Assembly: GCF_900636545.1 (NCBI RefSeq)
Contig: NZ_LR134290.1
Span: 3,596,001 to 3,660,000 of the forward strand
Direction: 5' to 3'
Source: Pseudomonas mendocina
GTDB lineage: Bacteria; Pseudomonadota; Gammaproteobacteria; Pseudomonadales; Pseudomonadaceae
DNA: 64,000 bases
Shown here piece by piece: positions 1,811 to 64,000 of this stretch (the first letter of the stretch is position 1; every line of letters begins with the position of its first letter). Position numbers and translations under genes: made by a program. The notes under the pieces are model-generated. The model saw only the letters and a list, made by a program, of their open reading frames with translations, was not told the origin of the DNA and ran no database searches.

Positions 1811-3856
1811 TTACAGATCAAGCACCAGCGGTTGCACACCATCCTCACCCTGTGCCGGCACCACGCAGCAGATCAACACACCGCCGTCCTGCGGCAATTC
1901 GGCCGGAGGGTTCGGATAATGCACCTGACCACTGAGCAGACGCGTCTTGCAGGTGCCGCAGGAACCACCCCGACAACTGAACTCGGGCGTAAGACCGCGA
2001 CTTTCCGCCAGCTCCAGCAGGCTGCCGCTGTCCGGCTTCCAGCGCGCCTCTTTGCTCGATGCGCTGAAATACACCGGTACCGGCTCCGTCGCCGCCGGCG
2101 GCTGCACGAAGGTGGCGGCCGGGCCGTCCGTACGCCGCTTGAGCGTCGAGGGGCCAAACGCCTCGGCGTGGATACGGACGTCGGCGACGTTCAAATCACG
2201 CAGGCCATCGTAGATCGCCTGGGTAAAGGCGGCCGGGCCGCACAGGTAGAAGTCGTAATCGTCGAACGGCAGCGCCGCCTTGATCTGCTCCAGCTCGATG
2301 CGCCCCTGCTGCTCATAGTCGTGCCCCGGTAGCGCGTCCGCTTCCGGCGTGCTGAGGGCACGGTGAATATTCAGCAAACCACCCGCACGCTGCACCAGTT
2401 CGCGCAGCTCGGCCTGGAACGGCAGGTCGGCCAACGTCCGTGCACCCTGGAAGAAATGAATACGCCTGCCCTGCCCCAGCGCCACCTGCTCACGCAGCAT
2501 CGACAGCAACGGTGTGATGCCAACGCCCGCGCCGATCAACACCAGCGGCCGGTCGGTGTCGCTGTTCAGGGTGAAGCTGCCCAATGGCGGACGCACGTCC
2601 AGCACATCCCCCACTTGTACCTGTTCGTGCAGATGCCGCGAAACCACACCCTGCGCCTTGACGCTGATACGCAGTTGGCCGTCCGACGGCGCACTGGACA
2701 GGCTGTAGGTACGCAGCAGGGTTTCGCCCGCAGCGGTAGTGATGCGAATGGGCAGGTGCTGGCCAGCAGCGAAACTCGGTGCTGCGCCCGTTTCCGGCGC
2801 CAGCACCAATGAGCGAATGTCGGCACTCTCCTGCTGTACGCTCTGCACGCGCCAGCGTTGCCACTGATTGCGCTGCTCACGCTCGTGCAGGCGCGCGTCG
2901 GTTTCCGCCCAGGTGCCGGTCATCAGGCTGGTCGGTGCATATTCCTCGAAGGCCCAGCGCAGCGAGGTCGCCGCAGGGCGCAATACCACTTGCTCGACGT
3001 CGAACGTCCACAGCCGCTCGGCACCTTCGAAGGCCTTGATCAACGGGCTGTCGAGGATGATCTCGGCGCGACCACCCAACTGCAGCACATCGCCCGTGGC
3101 GAAGTCGACGAACAACAGGCCGGCGCGCGGGTTGACGCTGAGGTTACCCAGGGTGTTGAAGAACAGGTTGCCGGCGTAGTCGGGAATGGTCAGGCGCTTG
3201 CCTTCCACTCGTACGAAACCGGCGCGGCCGCCCCGGTGGGAAACATCCACGGAACGACGACCATCGTCGTGCTCGACGTAACTGGCGACGAAGAAGGTGT
3301 CGGCGCCTTCGATCAGCGCGCGGGGGCGTGCATCCAGCTCAGTTGAGTCCACGCGCTCGCCACCCCGTTCGGGCACACGGCGATACTGGCGCAGTTGAAT
3401 GTACTGCGGGCAATTGCCGTAGGAATGCTCCACGGCGATCTCCAGGCGTTGTGCCGAAGCCTGGCGAATCTGCCCGTTGATGCGATTGCGCCGCCGCGTG
3501 TGCAACTCGATACCCAGCAGACCGATGGCATCGCCCGCATCCAGGCCACTGCTGGCCGGGTCGAGCGGATCGAGCGCCATGGCGGCCAGATCGAACGACA
3601 GCCGACGTGGGTCGGGCGAGGTGACGAAGCCCTCCTCGCCTTCGATCAGGGTGGCCCAGGGCTGCCCCGAACCATCGACGGTGCCGGCGATCATGAACGG
3701 CAACTGGTGGTAGAACTCGCGATGCTGATCGGGCATGTAGTCGCGAATCACCTTCTGCCCGAGTACTTCCATGCGTTCACCGACGCCGACCTTTTCCTGC
3801 AGTTGTCTTTCACCGGCGTGCCAGGGCGACTGCCGATGGCTGGGGAGCTGTTGCAT
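1811..3856 (-). CDS. Three-module oxidoreductase: PNPOx-like flavin domain + FAD/NAD reductase + 2Fe-2S ferredoxin
   Basis: A 681-aa soluble fusion. The first 300 or so residues are a pyridoxamine-5'-phosphate-oxidase-like split-barrel flavin domain (FVTSPDPRRLSFD, GNLFFNTLGNLSVNPRAGLLFVDF). The middle is a ferredoxin-NADP reductase module with an FAD-binding RTYSLSSAP and an NAD-binding VLIGAGVGITPLLSML. The C-terminal 90 residues are a plant-type 2Fe-2S ferredoxin with CRGGSCGTC and a final ICC. Electrons would flow NAD(P)H to FAD to the iron-sulfur cluster, with the flavin barrel as the likely substrate site; the substrate is unknown. The start is the ATG at 3856, preceded by GGAGGGCGCAAC. 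The open frame continues upstream only because it runs into the repeat element at 3907-4076, so longer versions are artefacts. Confidence 0.9.
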   Translation of the reverse strand: MQQLPSHRQSPWHAGERQLQEKVGVGERMEVLGQKVIRDYMPDQHREFYHQLPFMIAGTVDGSGQPWATLIEGEEGFVTSPDPRRLSFDLAAMALDPLDPASSGLDAGDAIGLLGIELHTRRRNRINGQIRQASAQRLEIAVEHSYGNCPQYIQLRQYRRVPERGGERVDSTELDARPRALIEGADTFFVASYVEHDDGRRSVDVSHRGGRAGFVRVEGKRLTIPDYAGNLFFNTLGNLSVNPRAGLLFVDFATGDVLQLGGRAEIILDSPLIKAFEGAERLWTFDVEQVVLRPAATSLRWAFEEYAPTSLMTGTWAETDARLHEREQRNQWQRWRVQSVQQESADIRSLVLAPETGAAPSFAAGQHLPIRITTAAGETLLRTYSLSSAPSDGQLRISVKAQGVVSRHLHEQVQVGDVLDVRPPLGSFTLNSDTDRPLVLIGAGVGITPLLSMLREQVALGQGRRIHFFQGARTLADLPFQAELRELVQRAGGLLNIHRALSTPEADALPGHDYEQQGRIELEQIKAALPFDDYDFYLCGPAAFTQAIYDGLRDLNVADVRIHAEAFGPSTLKRRTDGPAATFVQPPAATEPVPVYFSASSKEARWKPDSGSLLELAESRGLTPEFSCRGGSCGTCKTRLLSGQVHYPNPPAELPQDGGVLICCVVPAQGEDGVQPLVLDL

Positions 3857-3906
3857 GTTGCGCCCTCCACGAAAGTGGCCGCCGGGCGATCCCGGCAGCG
3901 GCTGTA

Positions 3907-4076
3907 GGGCGCTTCTAAAAACGTAGGCGAGGCAGCCAGCGCAAGGCAAAAACAAGCGAAAAACGGTCGGAGTCGCGCTCGACTTTACGTGCTGTAAATG
4001 AGCAGTTTGATCGGACTCGCGCACGAGCTTGTTTTTAACGCAGTGATGGCAACGCAGGTAGTTTTTAGAGGCGCCC
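3907..4076. mobile_element. MITE-like element, copy 1 (170 bp)
   Basis: The element has terminal inverted repeats: GGGCGCTTCTAAAAAC at 3907 and the complement of GGGCGCCTCTAAAAAC at 4076. Inner complementary blocks (AAAAACAAGC near 3950, GCTTGTTTTT near 4030) would let the whole unit fold into one long hairpin. It matches the copy at 55509-55648 over both ends and differs by a roughly 30-bp longer centre. It encodes no transposase, so it would need one in trans. It sits 6 bases past the GST stop and 50 bases before the reductase start. I could not identify a clear target duplication for this copy. Confidence 0.85.
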
Positions 4077-4082
4077 TGCGAC

Positions 4083-4709
4083 TCAGGCCTGCAGACCGGC
4101 GGCAGTACGCGGCATCGGCACGAACCCCGGCAGCGCCTCGATGCGTGCCAGCCAGGCGCGAATGTTCGGGTAGGGCTCCAGCGAAACGTTGCCCTCCGGC
4201 GCGTGGGCGATATAGGAGTAGTTGGCGACGTCGGCGATGCTCGGCTTGTCGCCGGTCAGGAACGGGGTTTCGCTCAGCTCGCCCTCCATCACGGTGAACA
4301 GCGCATGGGCGCGATTGATCACTTCTTCAGTATTGAACGAGGCGCCGAACACGGTGACCAGACGCGCAGCAGCGGGACCAAAGGCCACCAGCCCGGCGGC
4401 GACGGACAACCAGCGCTGCACACGGGCAGCAGCAGCGGGCTCCTGCGGCAGCCAGTCGTCATTGCCGTAGCGCTTGGCCAGATATACGAGGATGGCGTTG
4501 GAATCGCTGACGATGGTGCCGCCATCATCGATCACCGGCACCTGGCCAAAGGGGTTGAGGGCCAGGAACGCCGGCGTCTTGTGTTCGCCCTTGGCCAGGT
4601 CGACGAAGATCAGCTCGGTGGGCAGTTGCAGCAGCGAGAGCATCAGCTCGGCACGGTGGGCGTGACCGGAGCGGGGAAAGTTGTACAGCTTGATGGCGGG
4701 ACTAGACAT
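4083..4709 (-). CDS. Glutathione S-transferase family protein
   Basis: A 208-aa cytosolic GST, normal family length. The N-terminal thioredoxin-like half (residues 1-80) carries [30 protein letters not shown] (cis-Pro) and the glutathione-binding [14 protein letters not shown]. The helical C-terminal half includes [19 protein letters not shown], the N-capping region of the fold. It probably conjugates or reduces electrophiles with glutathione; the substrate cannot be inferred. The ATG at 4709 is chosen because AAGGAG lies 8 bases before it and the family begins with 'IKLYNFP'. Two LysR genes lie upstream on the same strand, 133 bp away, and may control it. Confidence 0.9.
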
Positions 4710-57577: not shown

Positions 57578-58909
57578 TCATACCGACTCCCGCAGATCGA
57601 TCTGGCCGGTCACGGCAGCGGTGATCAGGGCGGAGCGGCGTTCTTTTAGGAGAGTGATGCTGTGTTCGGTTTTGCCGATCAAACTATCCAGTCGCCCTGT
57701 ACCTTGATCGAGATATTCAGTGATTGCTTTTTGCTCTGGCGAAGGCGGAACAGCAAGCCAAATTTCTTTGGTTTTCTCTTGATTCATAATCCCGATAGTC
57801 GCCGCGTTTGCCAGAAACCACATTGCTTCGGTCTTGACGGAAAGCGAATAGGCCAAAAAGTACCCACTCATCCGCGAATTAGGGATAACAGCATTTATCT
57901 GCTGATTTGCAGAGGCTGATTCGACGAGATAACCGACCTTACCCAACGTGGCACCAATACTCACTACCAGCACTGCACCAGCCGGATAGGTTTTTGCCTC
58001 ACCAGAACTGACGGCCAAAGCACTGACACGCTTCTCGGATGAAGTAAGAACCAATGAGCCACCAAAGTCTCCTGGTGTATACCAAGCGAGGCCATCCGAG
58101 TCTGGACTCGGCGGTTCCTCGGATGGAGTGCCGCCGGTTTTCACAGCACTTACCACTCGCCGCAAAGGCAAAGCATCCCAATGCTCCGGCACCTCCCCCA
58201 GCCACTCCACGCCGGAGTGTTTCATCTTTACGTTCGGGTCAAGCCCCTTGGTGACGGTATGGGTGATCAGCGCCTGGCGCTTTTCGCGCAGCAGTTCGAT
58301 AAAGCGGGTTTTCTTTTCGACCAGTGCATCGATGCGGGCGGTTTCGCGGTCGAGCTTGCTGGCGATTAGACGCTGTTCATCTAGATCAGGGAGCGATACC
58401 GGAAAATTGCGCGTGAACTCATCCGGTACTCGCTTCAACCCACCGGCCCCGGTCATTGCACCGGCGCCGAAGGCACGAAAACTGGAAGCTTGAACGATGT
58501 AGTTGATATAGCGGGCATCTGCAACTGCTGGATTCGGGCGAACTACAGTCAACTCGGTAGTGCCAAACCCAGCAGCACGCTGCAGCCCCAGCATCAGAGC
58601 CCCTTTCCCATTCTCAAAGCAGGGCGTGACCTTAGCGAAGGCCACATCACCATTTTCAAAATAGGAATAACCACTTCTTACGTCAGCTACCGGACGATTC
58701 TGCTCAAGGTTGAGCGAACCATCTTCGCCAATAGCCTCCATCGGCAGGAAAGAAACTTCTTGTTCCGGATCATCCAGCAAATCGCGACGAACAGGCGGAT
58801 TCAAGGTGGCTACATAGCGCATACGTGCAACGTGCCAATGCTCCGGCACCCGCCCCAACCACTCCACCCCGGAATCCTTATAGGCCGGGTAGGGTTTGTA
58901 CTGACTCAC
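57578..58909 (-). CDS. hsdS: Type I restriction-modification specificity subunit (HsdS)
   Basis: A 443-aa DNA-recognition subunit with two target-recognition domains separated by conserved helices. The opening repeat SGVEWLGRVPEHW (residues 13-25) recurs as SGVEWLGEVPEHW (232-244). Each half ends in a helix of the type LDEQRLIASKLDRETARIDA (residues 177-196) and PEQKAITEYLDQGTGRLDSL. The two variable domains determine the bipartite target. The coding part is AT-richer than its neighbours, a sign of exchange by recombination. The start is a GTG at 58909 overlapping the hsdM stop (GTGA). Confidence 0.94.
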   Translation of the reverse strand: MSQYKPYPAYKDSGVEWLGRVPEHWHVARMRYVATLNPPVRRDLLDDPEQEVSFLPMEAIGEDGSLNLEQNRPVADVRSGYSYFENGDVAFAKVTPCFENGKGALMLGLQRAAGFGTTELTVVRPNPAVADARYINYIVQASSFRAFGAGAMTGAGGLKRVPDEFTRNFPVSLPDLDEQRLIASKLDRETARIDALVEKKTRFIELLREKRQALITHTVTKGLDPNVKMKHSGVEWLGEVPEHWDALPLRRVVSAVKTGGTPSEEPPSPDSDGLAWYTPGDFGGSLVLTSSEKRVSALAVSSGEAKTYPAGAVLVVSIGATLGKVGYLVESASANQQINAVIPNSRMSGYFLAYSLSVKTEAMWFLANAATIGIMNQEKTKEIWLAVPPSPEQKAITEYLDQGTGRLDSLIGKTEHSITLLKERRSALITAAVTGQIDLRESV

Positions 58910-60828
58910 GCCGTCACCTCACCCAGCAGCGCGGCGATCTCGGCTTCCACAGCCTTGAGGTCGGCATCGATCTCGGCCAGCGGGCGCGGCGGCTGGTAGA
59001 CGTAGAAGTAGCGGTTGAAGTTGATCTCGTAGCCGACGATGCCCACCTGGCCGTCCTTGGGGTCGAGCTTGGCGGTGTCGATCCAGGCGTCGGGCACATG
59101 GGGCAGCACTTCGCGGGCGAAGTAGTCCTCGACGTTCTGGTTCAGCGGCACGTTCTCGAACTCGCGCAGGTCGGGGTCGGGCTGCGGCTTGCCCTTGTCA
59201 TCGAGCATCGGCTGGGCGCTGGGGTCACGTTCGCCGAAGCAGGCCAGTGCGGCTTTCAGCGCGCCCTTGCCAAGTTTCTTGATACCAGCGGCCTTGAGGA
59301 AGGCCGGCAGGTTGTCGGACTCGCCGCTCACGCTGGCGAAGGCGTCGATCTGATCAGCGCCCTTGGCCTCGCGGTAGGCGGCGAGATTTTCCGGCGTCAC
59401 GGCAAAGCGCAGGCGCAGCGGGCGCTCGACGGTGATGCGGCGGTAGCCGAAGTCGCTGGTGGCGAAGATTTTCGACTGGGCGCCGTGCTCACAGGCTTCA
59501 TGGAGCTTGGCGATTTCGGCGATCTGCACTTCGGACAGGTACTTGCGCTTGTTGCCCAGGCTCTTGTGCATGGGCGCGTGCATGGCGGTGGCGTCGATCA
59601 GTTGCACCTTGCCTTTGCGCAGTTCGTCCTTGTGGTTGGACAGCACCCAGACATAGGTGCCGATGCCGGTGTTGTAGAACAGGTCATTGGGCAGGGCGAT
59701 GATCGCCTCCAGCCAATCGTTCTCCAGTATCCAGCGGCGAATCTCCGACTCGCCCGAGCCGGCGCCGCCGTTGAACAGCGGCGAGCCTGACAGCACGATC
59801 CCGATGCGCGTGCCGCCCTCTTCCGGCGGTTTGCGCTTGGACAGCAAATGCATCAGGAACAGCAGCGAACCATCGCCCACGCGCGGCAGGCCTGGGCCGA
59901 AGCGCCCGTAGAAGCCATGCTGGCTGTGTTCGGCCTGCACCTGCGGCTGCACCTTCTCCCACTTCACGCCGAACGGCGGGTTGGCCAGGCAGTAGTCGAA
60001 GCGCTCAGCGGGCAGCAGGTCGTTGGACAGGGTGTTACCAAGCTTGATGTTCTTGGTCTCGAAGCCCTGGATGAGTTTGTCGGCCACGGAGATGGCGTAG
60101 GTTTCCGGGTTCAGCTCCTGGGCGTAGGGCACGATGCGCGCCGGGGCCTTCCATTCATCCTTGACCAACTCGATGGCCGAAGACAGAAAGCCGCCCGTAC
60201 CGGCGGCGCAGTCATAAACGGTGCGCACCGCGCCTTCCTGATTGAGGGCACGGTGATCCGGGGCGAATACCAGGGTGGTGGTCAGGCGCACCACGTCACG
60301 CGGGGTAAAGAACTCACCGGCGGTGTCGTTGGCGGATTCGGCGAACTTGCGGATCAGGTGCTCGAACACCAGGCCCATTTCGTGGTTGCTCAGCACCTCG
60401 GGGTGCAGGTCGATGGCGGCGAACTTCTGCGTGACCAGATACAACAACTTGGCCTTGTCGAGCTGCACCAGCCAGTCGGAAAAGGCGAAGTGCTCGAACA
60501 CCTGGCGGGCGTTGGCGGAAAACTTGGCGATGTAGTCTTCGAGGTTGGCACGGGTATCGGTGGCGCCCAGGGTAGCCAGGTCGAATTGCGAGACGTTGTA
60601 GAAGGTGGCCTTGGCCGTGGCGGGCAGGATCAGATCCAGATCAACGCTGCTGGATTTCATCGCCTGATGCTGGGCACGCACCGCGTCACGGGTTGGCTCC
60701 AGCACACACTCCAGACGACGCAGCAAAGTGAAGGGCAGGATGATGCGGCCGTAGATGGACTGTTTGAAGTCGCCGCGCAGCACGTCGGCCACGTTCCAGA
60801 TGAAGTCGGCGAGGTTTTGCTGGTTCAC
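58906..60828 (-). CDS. hsdM: Type I restriction-modification methyltransferase subunit (HsdM)
   Basis: A 640-aa adenine-N6 methyltransferase. The N-terminal helical region (NLADFIWNVADVLRGDFKQS) is followed by the SAM-binding motif DCAAGTGGF (206-214) and the catalytic NPPF (283-286). HsdM with HsdS methylates the recognition site to protect the chromosome. The GTG start at 60828 has AGGAA upstream and is the first gene of the locus. The C-terminal region is long (over 300 residues after NPPF), as in the HsdM branch found with GIY-YIG/DUF1016 accessory genes (recollection, not tested). Confidence 0.95.
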   Translation of the reverse strand: MNQQNLADFIWNVADVLRGDFKQSIYGRIILPFTLLRRLECVLEPTRDAVRAQHQAMKSSSVDLDLILPATAKATFYNVSQFDLATLGATDTRANLEDYIAKFSANARQVFEHFAFSDWLVQLDKAKLLYLVTQKFAAIDLHPEVLSNHEMGLVFEHLIRKFAESANDTAGEFFTPRDVVRLTTTLVFAPDHRALNQEGAVRTVYDCAAGTGGFLSSAIELVKDEWKAPARIVPYAQELNPETYAISVADKLIQGFETKNIKLGNTLSNDLLPAERFDYCLANPPFGVKWEKVQPQVQAEHSQHGFYGRFGPGLPRVGDGSLLFLMHLLSKRKPPEEGGTRIGIVLSGSPLFNGGAGSGESEIRRWILENDWLEAIIALPNDLFYNTGIGTYVWVLSNHKDELRKGKVQLIDATAMHAPMHKSLGNKRKYLSEVQIAEIAKLHEACEHGAQSKIFATSDFGYRRITVERPLRLRFAVTPENLAAYREAKGADQIDAFASVSGESDNLPAFLKAAGIKKLGKGALKAALACFGERDPSAQPMLDDKGKPQPDPDLREFENVPLNQNVEDYFAREVLPHVPDAWIDTAKLDPKDGQVGIVGYEINFNRYFYVYQPPRPLAEIDADLKAVEAEIAALLGEVTA

Positions 60829-61336
60829 GCGTGTATTCCTTGAGCGAATGCCGCAAGGCGCCTTGCGCGCCTGCCTGCGAGGTATTTCTAACGATGGCGA
60901 ACCTTACCCGCTCCCCCGCTCATGAGCCAGTGTCAGAGCGGAGCGGCTTCAGCCGCGATAGAAAAGCTCGCCGCTAAAGCGCCTCCTACAGGTGCCAGGC
61001 CTGAACGCTGAAGCCTGCCGCCGCACGGACTGTGGGAGGGGCTTCAGCCGCGACAGAACAGCTCGCCGCTAAAGCACCTCCTACAGGCGCCAGGCCTGAA
61101 CGCTGACGCCTGCTGCCGCACGGACTGTGGGAGGGCTTTAGCCGCGACAGAACAGCTCGTCGCTAAAGCACCTCCTACAGGCGCCGGGCCTGAACGCTGG
61201 CACCCACCGACGCACGGATTGTGGGAGGGGCTTCAGCCGCGATAACGCAACGCCCGAAACATTCTGCAAAGTCTTAATACAGCGTTAAGCCAGCCCTCCC
61301 AGAATCACCCCCAGGCCAATCACCGAGGTTCCGACG
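60829..61336. other. 508-bp intergenic region, mostly a REP tandem array
   Basis: No gene found. 60829-60931 is the hsdM promoter side; 60932-61245 holds four REP cores in a 95-bp tandem array; 61246-61336 is the leader of the thermostable-hemolysin-like gene, with an AT-rich patch (CATTCTGCAAAGTCTTAATA) that could hold its promoter. Confidence 0.75.
60932..61245. repeat. Tandem array of a 95-bp unit, each with one REP core
   Basis: The REP core TGTGGGAGGGGCTTCAGCC recurs with ggctt at about 60946, 61041, 61135 and 61230, giving 94-95-bp periods. Between cores the units share GACAGAACAGCTC, CTAAAGCACCTCCTACAGG and CAGGCCTGAACGCTG blocks. Unit 1 lacks the first half of the core. The core is a palindrome typical of Pseudomonas REP families. 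Confidence 0.85.
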
Positions 61337-62026
61337 ATGGAACTACCCTGGGCGCATCACGACCGTCCCGTTGCCCGTATCGGGCGCGGCGATACTTACG
61401 AACTCCACCTGGCTTCCCCTGGCAGCGCGCGGCGCGCGGTGCTGGAGCAGTTCATCCGCCAGCGCTTCGAGTTGCAGCACGGTGCACGCATCCGTCACTT
61501 CATGCCCTGCCTGTTCGGCCTGGAAAACCAGGCCGGTCAGTTGCTCGGTGCAGTGGGCGTGCGTGGCGGCAACAGCGGCGCGCTGTTTCTCGAGCGCTAC
61601 CTGAACGAGCCGATCGAAACCGCCATCGGTGCCCGCCTTGGTCATGTCGAACCTGGTCGTGGCGAGGTGGTGGAAGTCGGCAACCTGGCTGCCGACAGTC
61701 CCGGTGCTGCGCGCCTGCTGATCGTCGCCCTGACCGATTTGCTGGTAGCCCTGGGTTTCCGCTGGGTCACCTTCACCGGTACGCCGACGCTGCTCAACAG
61801 CTTCCAACGCCTGGGCCTGACCCCCATCGCCCTGGGCGAGGCCGACCCGGCGCGCATGGGCGAAGAGCTGGCCGACTGGGGCAACTACTACGCCAACCGC
61901 CCACTGGTGATGGCCGGCGACATCCATGGCGGCCATCAGCGCCTGCTGCAACTGGGCGCCTATCCCCGTCTCGGCCACCAACCACTCTATGCCCTGGAGG
62001 ACATGCCCAATGTGGTCTGCAGCTGA
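61337..62026 (+). CDS. Thermostable-hemolysin family protein (GNAT-like)
   Basis: A 229-aa cytoplasmic protein, beginning ELPWAHHDRPVARIGRGDTY, with RRAVLEQFIRQRFELQHGAR and IRHFMPCLFGLENQAGQLL followed by AAVGVR-type strands, and EVGNLAADSPGAARLLIVAL TDLL in the region that binds CoA in acetyltransferases. The family is named after a Vibrio thermostable hemolysin, but its fold resembles N-acyltransferases, so acyl transfer to a small molecule is a better guess (inference). It has no signal peptide. Its end overlaps the next gene by 17 nt, so the two are cotranslated. It is divergent from nothing; the REP array precedes it. Confidence 0.82.
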   Translation: MELPWAHHDRPVARIGRGDTYELHLASPGSARRAVLEQFIRQRFELQHGARIRHFMPCLFGLENQAGQLLGAVGVRGGNSGALFLERYLNEPIETAIGARLGHVEPGRGEVVEVGNLAADSPGAARLLIVALTDLLVALGFRWVTFTGTPTLLNSFQRLGLTPIALGEADPARMGEELADWGNYYANRPLVMAGDIHGGHQRLLQLGAYPRLGHQPLYALEDMPNVVCS

Positions 62027-63458
62027 ATCCTTCTTCGAGCATCTAGCCGCCTTTGGTCCGCGCACGGCGCTGGCCGAGGATGGTCACGAACTCACCTATG
62101 ACGGTCTGCTGGCAGCCGTGGCCAGCCGCAGCCGTCATCTGCGCGAGCTGGGCGCCCAGCGCGTGGCACTGGCGCTGGATAACGGTATCGACTGGATACT
62201 GTGGGATCTGGCGGCGTTGCATGCCGGCCTGGTCTGCGTGCCGGTACCCGGGTTCTTCTCCGCCGATCAGCAACGCCATGTGCTCGACAGCGCCGGCATC
62301 GATTGCCTGATCGGCGCCGGTGCACCCGGCTTCGCCACCGTCGAGAACGGCATTCATCGCCGCTCGGTGGCGCAACCGCCCGAGCTGCACGCCGGCACCT
62401 GCAAGATCACCTACACCTCCGGCACCACCGGTCAGCCCAAGGGCGTGTGCCTGGATCTGGCCACGCAACTGGCGGTGGCCGACAGCCTGGTCAAGGCCAG
62501 CGCCAGCCGCGAAGTGGAGCGCCATCTGTGCATCCTGCCGCTGGCGACCCTGCTGGAGAACATTGCTGGCGTCTACGCCCCGCTGCTGGCCGGTGCGCGC
62601 GTGGAGTTGATGCCGATGGCACAGATCGGCCTGAGCGGCGCCAGTGGCTTCGACCTGATGCGCTTTCTGCAGGCGCTGCAAGCCGCCCAGCCGAACAGCC
62701 TGATCCTGCTGCCGCAACTGCTACTGGCGCTGGTCAGCGCAGCCGAGCGCAAACTGCCGGTACCGGGCTCACTGCGCTTCGTCGCCGTCGGTGGCGGGCG
62801 CGTCTCGGCCCAGTTGCTGCAGCGCGCCGATGCGCTGGGTCTGCCAATTTTCGAGGGCTACGGGCTGTCCGAGTGCGCCTCGGTGGTCTGCCTGAACACC
62901 CCCGAGCAGCGCCATATCGGCAGCACCGGCAAACCGCTGGAGCATCTGCAGATCCGCCTGACGGATGACGGCGAGGTGCTGGTCAAGGGCGCGCGCATGC
63001 TCGGCTACATCGGCGACCCGGCGCCGCAAGGCGAGTGGCTGGGCACCGGCGACCTCGGTCATTTCGAGGACGGTTTCCTGGTGCTGCATGGGCGCAAGAA
63101 GCATCAGTTCATCACCGCCTATGGGCGCAACGTCAACCCGGAATGGGTCGAGTCCGAGTTGGTGCAACAGCTGCCTATCGCCCAGGCCTGGCTGCACGGC
63201 GAGGCGCTGCCGGCCAACGTCGCGGTGCTGGTGCCGCGCTTTCCCAACACCCCTGACGCGCAGTTGCAGGCGGCCGTGGACGCCGTCAATCACGGCCTGC
63301 CGGACTACGCCCGAGTGCACCACTGGCTGCGCGCCGATGCCCCCTTCAACGCGAGCAACGACCTGGCCACGGCCAACGGCCGCCTGCGCCGCACTGCCCT
63401 GTTCAATCATTACCAAGCCGCCATCGAAGCGTTGATGGCAGAAGGAGTACACGCATGA
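62010..63458 (+). CDS. AMP-dependent acyl ligase (ANL superfamily), C-terminal catalytic Lys replaced by Arg
   Basis: A 482-aa adenylate-forming enzyme. The core P-loop is TYTSGTTGQPKGVCLDL (about residues 135-151), the substrate-binding GYGLSECASVVCLN follows, and GTGDLGHFEDGFLVLHGRKK is the hinge motif. The C-terminal A10-type segment reads LATANGRLRR, so the residue that is normally the adenylation lysine is Arg458. It lacks about 20-40 residues against common acyl-CoA synthetases. It likely activates a carboxylic acid for the partner proteins. The start at 62010 overlaps the upstream stop and its end overlaps the next ATG in ATGA. Confidence 0.88.
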   Translation: MWSAAESFFEHLAAFGPRTALAEDGHELTYDGLLAAVASRSRHLRELGAQRVALALDNGIDWILWDLAALHAGLVCVPVPGFFSADQQRHVLDSAGIDCLIGAGAPGFATVENGIHRRSVAQPPELHAGTCKITYTSGTTGQPKGVCLDLATQLAVADSLVKASASREVERHLCILPLATLLENIAGVYAPLLAGARVELMPMAQIGLSGASGFDLMRFLQALQAAQPNSLILLPQLLLALVSAAERKLPVPGSLRFVAVGGGRVSAQLLQRADALGLPIFEGYGLSECASVVCLNTPEQRHIGSTGKPLEHLQIRLTDDGEVLVKGARMLGYIGDPAPQGEWLGTGDLGHFEDGFLVLHGRKKHQFITAYGRNVNPEWVESELVQQLPIAQAWLHGEALPANVAVLVPRFPNTPDAQLQAAVDAVNHGLPDYARVHHWLRADAPFNASNDLATANGRLRRTALFNHYQAAIEALMAEGVHA

Positions 63459-64000
63459 GCTTCTACGAATCCCTGCTGGCTCAGACCCAGGCTGAACGCG
63501 ACTACCTGCTCGGCGCACCGATCATCCAGCAGGCCATGACCGGCCAGGTCGCCTTGCGCAGCTACATCGCCTTCCTCACCGAGGCCTACCACCACGTCAA
63601 GCACACCGTACCGCTGCTGATGGCCTGCGGCGCACGCCTGCCGGAACGTCTGGAATGGCTGCGCGAAGCCATCGCCGAGTACATCGAAGAGGAAACCGGG
63701 CACCAGGAGTGGGTGCTCAATGACATCGCCGCCTGCGGTGCGGACAAGGATGCGGTGCGCCATGGCACGCCGCACATGTCCACCGAACTGATGGTGGCCT
63801 ATGTCTACGACCGCATCGCCCGGCACAACCCGGTGAGCTTCTTCGGCATGGTCAACGTGCTCGAAGGCACCAGCATCGCCCTGGCCACCCAGGCCGCCGG
63901 CATCATCCAGGACAAGCTGCAACTGCCGAACAAGGCCTTCAGCTACCTCAACTCCCACGGCAGCCTGGACCTGGAGCACATCGAGTTCTTCAAGAAGCTG
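63455..64000 (+). CDS. Haem-oxygenase-fold di-iron oxidase-like protein, N-terminal 182 residues (window ends)
   Basis: The frame is open for 182 codons and runs off the right edge. It reads MSFYESLLAQTQAERDYLLG with an all-helical TenA/PqqC pattern. Candidate metal ligands in the order expected of UndA-type oxidases are: Glu43-Ala-Tyr-His-His, Glu80-x-x-His83 (EETGHQEW), Glu137 (VLEGTS) and His175 (LDLEHIEFF). Enzymes of this type oxidise fatty or amino-acid-derived substrates with O2, e.g. removing carbon or forming alkenes. Its ATG overlaps the ligase stop (ATGA), so the two act together. The assignment is from motif reading. Confidence 0.8.
   Translation, partial: MSFYESLLAQTQAERDYLLGAPIIQQAMTGQVALRSYIAFLTEAYHHVKHTVPLLMACGARLPERLEWLREAIAEYIEEETGHQEWVLNDIAACGADKDAVRHGTPHMSTELMVAYVYDRIARHNPVSFFGMVNVLEGTSIALATQAAGIIQDKLQLPNKAFSYLNSHGSLDLEHIEFFKKL

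Follow-up and report, generated by a model that had tools for sequence, protein, structure and literature searches.

Introduction

A gene cluster on a plasmid of Pseudoalteromonas carrageenovora has been described as a potential virulence cluster conserved in 24 genomes of its genus, according to the accessible text of that report (PMC6262041). A plasmid record of the species carries the same seven genes as the operon that we analyse here, which begins close to the end of a 64,000-nucleotide stretch of Pseudomonas mendocina DNA (contig NZ_LR134290.1, positions 3,596,001 to 3,660,000 of the forward strand; hereafter the window) forming part of one 5.19 Mb contig. In order, the genes encode THL, a member of the "thermostable hemolysin" family PF12261; ANL, an AMP-binding ligase; HDO, a haem-oxygenase-like iron oxidase; a short-chain dehydrogenase/reductase (SDR); a tetratricopeptide repeat (TPR) protein; a response regulator; and a kinase. 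This is a genuine operon, conserved over a wide range of bacteria and little characterised; its components belong to known kinds, whereas their combination does not. We suggest that it is most likely biosynthetic, and with moderate confidence we propose a model whereby it makes a small fatty or amino-acid-derived molecule: THL uses the acid activated by the ligase to acylate an amine, and the product is then oxidised by the oxygenase and adjusted by the SDR.

The published reading of the Pseudoalteromonas cluster differs from ours in that the accessible text of PMC6262041 reads it in terms of hemolysin and virulence and names no oxidase or SDR of the cluster. In the plasmid record of the species (L200), the order THL-ANL-HDO-SDR-TPR-response regulator-kinase is followed by cupredoxin and iron-transporter genes (L200 8462-9797). 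The operon or1352-or1355 of Serratia ATCC 39006, with a TauD protein, an AMP-dependent ligase, a THL and a drug transporter, is a form of the cassette that has TauD instead of HDO; here too, in the part of the paper that is available, THL was treated as a haemolysin (PMC4046660). Both genome papers, so far as their accessible text goes, noted parts of the cluster and kept the hemolysin reading (PMC6262041, PMC4046660), and a literature search, with most subscription papers outside its reach, listed no paper treating THL-ANL-HDO/TauD as a biosynthetic pathway. A DtpC-type desiccation factor was considered and rejected: it is a different protein, co-transcribed with katE according to the accessible text of PMC13232832.

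A conserved operon of seven genes

The initial annotation, made from the DNA letters alone, described three overlapping genes at the end of the window and an operon continuing beyond it, and the open reading frames bear this out. On the forward strand, THL occupies 61337..62026 (ATG start; 229 aa) and overlaps by 17 nt (62010-62026) with ANL at 62010..63458 (ATG at 62010; 482 aa), which in turn overlaps by 4 nt (63455-63458) with HDO. The HDO gene starts with the ATG at 63455, runs past the window edge at 64000 and, if the window numbering is carried on, stops at 64114 (219 aa; 3455-4114 in locus L002, whose positions are those of the window minus 60000). Pfam assignments are clear for all three proteins (THL, PF12261, 201 bits vs a cut-off of 27; ANL, PF00501, 162 bits vs 29.9; HDO, PF14518, 105 bits vs 28.9). 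Outside the window come the genes for the SDR, the TPR protein, the response regulator and the kinase, all on the same strand with intergenic gaps of at most 27 nt; the first of them encodes an SDR, one of the neighbours that the annotation had expected to be telling.

Separation of the three genes in close relatives would have spoken against a common function; instead, they stay together in most of the relatives read. A scan of species genomes gave 405 THL relatives, the best 80 of which were kept, nearly all from Pseudomonas, Stutzerimonas and Azotobacter. Among these 80, all seven genes are ordered alike in 75, and THL-ANL-HDO-SDR together with the kinase pair are in order in 76, the additional locus being that of Azotobacter vinelandii (L117), which has all but the TPR gene, not detected there; the remaining four (L062, L077, L095, L116) stop at contig edges. 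Another 39 loci were read with wide flanks: 38 picked for diversity from 80 phylum-sample matches and one from the congeneric scan (3 share the genus, 2 only the family, 6 only the order, 10 only the class and 18 only the phylum; 34/39 from other families). THL-ANL-HDO-SDR-TPR are in order in 31 of these 39. Five more (L144, L148, L156, L157, L158) have THL-ANL-HDO with the rest partly not in place, the sequence stopping right after HDO in L157 and ~650 nt after it in L158; two (L139, L161) have THL-ANL without HDO, and one (L153) has THL alone. ANL also lies beside THL in 36 of 40 short loci read with 1.5 kb flanks.

PF12261 is found in 78 of 398 genomes sampled across the phylum (77 above the cut-off) and in 27 of 59 congeneric genomes. 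Precisely the same 26 of these congeneric genomes carry a THL above 195 bits and an HDO with 61% identity or more, a count that omits eight more HDO-like matches at 20-24% identity. Thirty-two plasmid records carry THL and, judged by coordinates, 20 of the 30 listed have HDO on the strand of THL and ~2 kb downstream of it; eight of the remaining ten were read, the Rhizobium records H55 and H56 being left out.

TauD replaces HDO at other loci

Congeneric genomes contain a second type of THL, encoded in the order THL-ANL-TauD-two class III aminotransferases-amidase at 5/5 loci (L139, L161, L196, L197, L198), as seen by a family search on L161 (8121-15026) and, for the other four, by similarity to L161. 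Of five Streptomyces plasmid records, the four that we read all carry THL-ANL-TauD. In three of them (L164, L194, L195) the trio lies amid several ketosynthase genes, within clusters that also encode dehydratases and major facilitator superfamily exporters and are probably natural-product clusters. On an Acinetobacter plasmid the order is THL, a small open reading frame, ANL, a transposase, TauD and SDR. Three TauD proteins that we translated have, by eye, H-x-E plus a later H, and the H-x-D pattern is absent from these three. Because a TauD-type oxygenase replaces HDO at these loci, we take THL-ANL-non-haem iron oxygenase to be the core unit, and the presence of two iron-oxygenase families at the same place after THL-ANL suggests a common kind of substrate and oxidation.

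Folds and conserved residues of the core enzymes

The predicted structure of THL (AlphaFold model, pLDDT 94.1) has the fold of a GNAT-type acyltransferase, in agreement with the acyltransferase-like character first assigned to it. Its top fold matches are the acyl-homoserine lactone (AHL) synthases TofI, LasI, BjaI and RpaI together with FeeM, a synthase of N-acyl amino acids, and on the basis of this model the name "thermostable hemolysin" is probably wrong. The THL profile, searched against the sequences of solved structures, gave no match. LuxI proteins have seven reference residues (W36, E45, D47, D50, E102, S104, R105) that are invariant in 31 LuxI sequences. THL shares the predicted fold with LuxI and FeeM and a matching Glu with LuxI: E113, invariant in THL, aligns with LuxI E102 of the E-L-S-R stretch and is the one LuxI invariant that THL keeps. 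THL has a gap over the E-D-D stretch, where LuxI enzymes show E-x-D-x-x-D, and G-N in place of their S-R; on account of these missing residues and the absence of a Pfam match we rejected the reading of THL as a true AHL synthase. THL further differs from both FeeM and LuxI in being encoded together with a ligase, an oxidase and an SDR.

HDO has a haem-oxygenase-like helical fold (model pLDDT 93.9) and six putative metal ligands, E80, H83, E137, H168, D172 and H175, kept in 114/114 sequences. They form the 3-His/3-carboxylate set described for the HDO superfamily in the accessible text of PMC13108848. HDO resembles CADD, UndA, HrmI and MboA in fold and in this pattern, and the ligands align with those of MboA and, except around H83, also with those of CADD; it differs from them in its identity of 10-22% in structural alignments. 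It is also far under the cut-off for CADD-like para-aminobenzoate synthases (TIGR04305, 27.7 bits vs an NCBIfam cut-off of 200), and we rejected that assignment. The fold and ligand set thus point to a di-iron oxidase with a predicted metal centre, and the annotation's oxidase with a Glu/His set is borne out with an Asp added.

Public annotations name HDO as a TenA protein, but a role for it in thiamin salvage, or as a regulator of the TenA family, is highly improbable: the metal ligands are invariant, the operon contains no thiamin genes, and the only cysteines, C58 (93/114) and C94 (100/114), are not invariant and not of the TenA type, since thiaminase II has its catalytic cysteine in the latter half of the chain. 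The annotation had named such a cysteine as a sign against its reading.

The ligase call also stands, with the Pfam score given above and conserved adenylation-domain motifs: T136, S137, G138, K144 and G145 of the T-S-G...K-G loop are invariant in 110 sequences (of 118, eight having been dropped as incomplete or off-length). The nearest solved relatives of ANL are MenE-type ligases. The SDR gene (L002 4119-4910, forward strand, outside the window) follows directly after HDO; the protein belongs to adh_short (Pfam) and scores 394 bits, vs a cut-off of 238, with NF006565, a model whose name gives no function. Of its catalytic set, N109 is invariant and S137, Y150 and K154 are present in 108/109.

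Discussion

Our results support the idea, raised in the initial annotation, that the genes serve one shared pathway, for which gene linkage provides good support. In our model, ANL would activate a carboxylic acid and THL, as a GNAT-type enzyme with a LuxI/FeeM kind of fold, would use it to acylate an amine or amino acid. The compound so formed, acid-like or amino-acid-like, would be the substrate of HDO, whose oxidation could be, for instance, a desaturation, a hydroxylation or an oxidative decarboxylation, and the SDR would then reduce or oxidise the newly made group.

Several observations weigh against this model. The TM-scores of the top fold matches of THL are just 0.47-0.72, and EsaI and MesI match it no better than ordinary GNATs do in VIA. 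None of 19 THL members matched PF00765 (LuxI) at E values up to 10, PF21926 (FeeM) is not among the families that these 19 matched, and, depending on which of two THL sets is used, the profile-profile probability of THL vs LuxI is 4.8% or 0.4%. The HDO fold is matched nearly as well by haem oxygenases and TenA proteins as by HDOs. In ANL, the A10 position, where the usual catalytic lysine of ANL enzymes is expected, is R458, with Arg in 100/110 sequences, Lys in 7, Ala in 2 and Thr in 1; together with the 25 best NCBIfam models all being under their cut-offs, this leaves the activity of ANL and the acid that it would activate uncertain. THL occurs alone in L153, L165 and L168 and without ANL in four of the 40 short loci (L012, L014, L027, L028, all from genus g152). 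A further exception is Methylosinus, which has a scattered set of the genes.

A first alternative is fatty-acid modification without N-acylation, in which HDO would act on a fatty acid as UndA or a desaturase does, ANL would recycle that acid, THL would shift acyl groups from one carrier to another or to an alcohol or lipid, and the SDR would reduce an aldehyde or ketone. We consider it rather unlikely. UndA shares the HDO fold, yet its Z score is tied with those of many other entries and it is not among the HDO sequence matches; moreover, the top matches of THL, FeeM and the AHL synthases, are amide makers, and the TauD replacement and aminotransferase neighbours of the second type suggest nitrogen compounds.

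The published interpretation, a virulence cluster with THL as a genuine hemolysin, secreted or released, and with neighbours that modify or regulate it, appears unlikely. It is the reading given to the same plasmid cluster in Pseudoalteromonas, where a zebrafish-toxic thermostable hemolysin of Vibrio alginolyticus is cited (PMC6262041, accessible text), and the V. cholerae protein is haemolytic according to the accessible text of PMC4046660; this hemolysis or toxicity of Vibrio members, cited in both papers, counts against biosynthesis, and under our model we would guess that the product is lytic or that the effect is an artefact of the host. However, the predicted fold of THL is that of an enzyme-like GNAT, with AHL synthases and FeeM as top matches, no signal peptide was found in the Vibrio and Serratia proteins according to the accessible account of PMC4046660, the operon is widespread in environmental bacteria, and the THL-ANL-TauD trio resides in Streptomyces biosynthetic clusters.

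A further possibility, which we regard as distinctly unlikely, is oxidation at nitrogen, with HDO or TauD acting on the N atom of an N-substituted amino acid by N-oxygenation or chemistry of the nitrile or isonitrile type, and with THL and ANL building or loading the substrate. The conserved genes include no carrier protein or peptide synthetase, and among the sequence matches of HDO there is no SznF and no HrmI, with AetD matching only weakly (E about 0.5).

Returning to the acylation-oxidation pathway, it is tempting to speculate that the PF12261 proteins form a lineage of LuxI/FeeM-fold synthases, for signals or lipids, that has gone unrecognised. Together with a dedicated acyl ligase and either of two interchangeable iron oxygenases, HDO or TauD, they would give rise in Pseudomonadota and Streptomyces to oxidised N-acyl molecules of a new class, sensed in Pseudomonadaceae by the adjoining kinase and regulator. 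We put this forward tentatively and hold it to be doubtful as a whole. Signalling via the adjoining kinase is speculative: the kinase is constant in near relatives only, and a related kinase pair is found at most 8.5 kb downstream in 10/39 of the further loci. If the proposal were true, environmental and pathogenic bacteria alike would commonly carry a mistaken "hemolysin" and virulence label, many orphan HDOs, a large group, would gain a pathway context, and another kind of LuxI-fold enzyme would become testable through a compact cassette that is found in Azotobacter vinelandii, a safe laboratory organism.

Remaining operon genes and surroundings

The TPR protein (L002 4921-5571) has an N-terminus that is signal-peptide-like by eye and is followed by the two-component pair of response regulator (L002 5599-6255) and kinase (L002 6252-7739), all three genes on the forward strand outside the window. 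The best models for the pair are PmrA/QseB and QseC, with scores under their cut-offs. Speculatively, the TPR protein and the adjoining two-component system probably serve an envelope response, export or regulation. A promoter scan of the operon found none, and the one terminator-like site lies inside the kinase gene; shuffled sequences give 4.3 such sites.

Identity to window positions 61337-64000 is uneven at two loci (L043, THL 97% and ANL 87%; L050, THL 91% and ANL 95%), a pattern such as recombination would give. The lone THL of L153 (8295-10023) adjoins a radical SAM/DUF3641 protein, and the same genome (G036) also has the full operon (L152). The loci L012, L014, L027 and L028 are on short contigs or have short flanks, and the neighbour of the L153 THL was not found in them. 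Beyond the operon, some genes recur at only some loci, as judged from sequence reading rather than a family search: an iron-transporter-like set (5-6 loci), SspA/GST-like genes (6) and a GGDEF protein (9). The iron-transporter-like genes, near L123, L124, L127, L128, L130 and L131, resemble those on the Pseudoalteromonas plasmid.

Upstream of the operon, the other strand carries HsdS- and HsdM-like genes of a type I restriction-modification system (57578-60828, by eye). HsdM, the one of the two that was searched for, had no match at the loci of the 80 close relatives, and it is therefore not part of the system. Between these restriction genes and the operon, a 109-nt repeat occurs three times (60945-61242); its copies are 85-87% alike and, being spaced by 94-95 nt, overlap.
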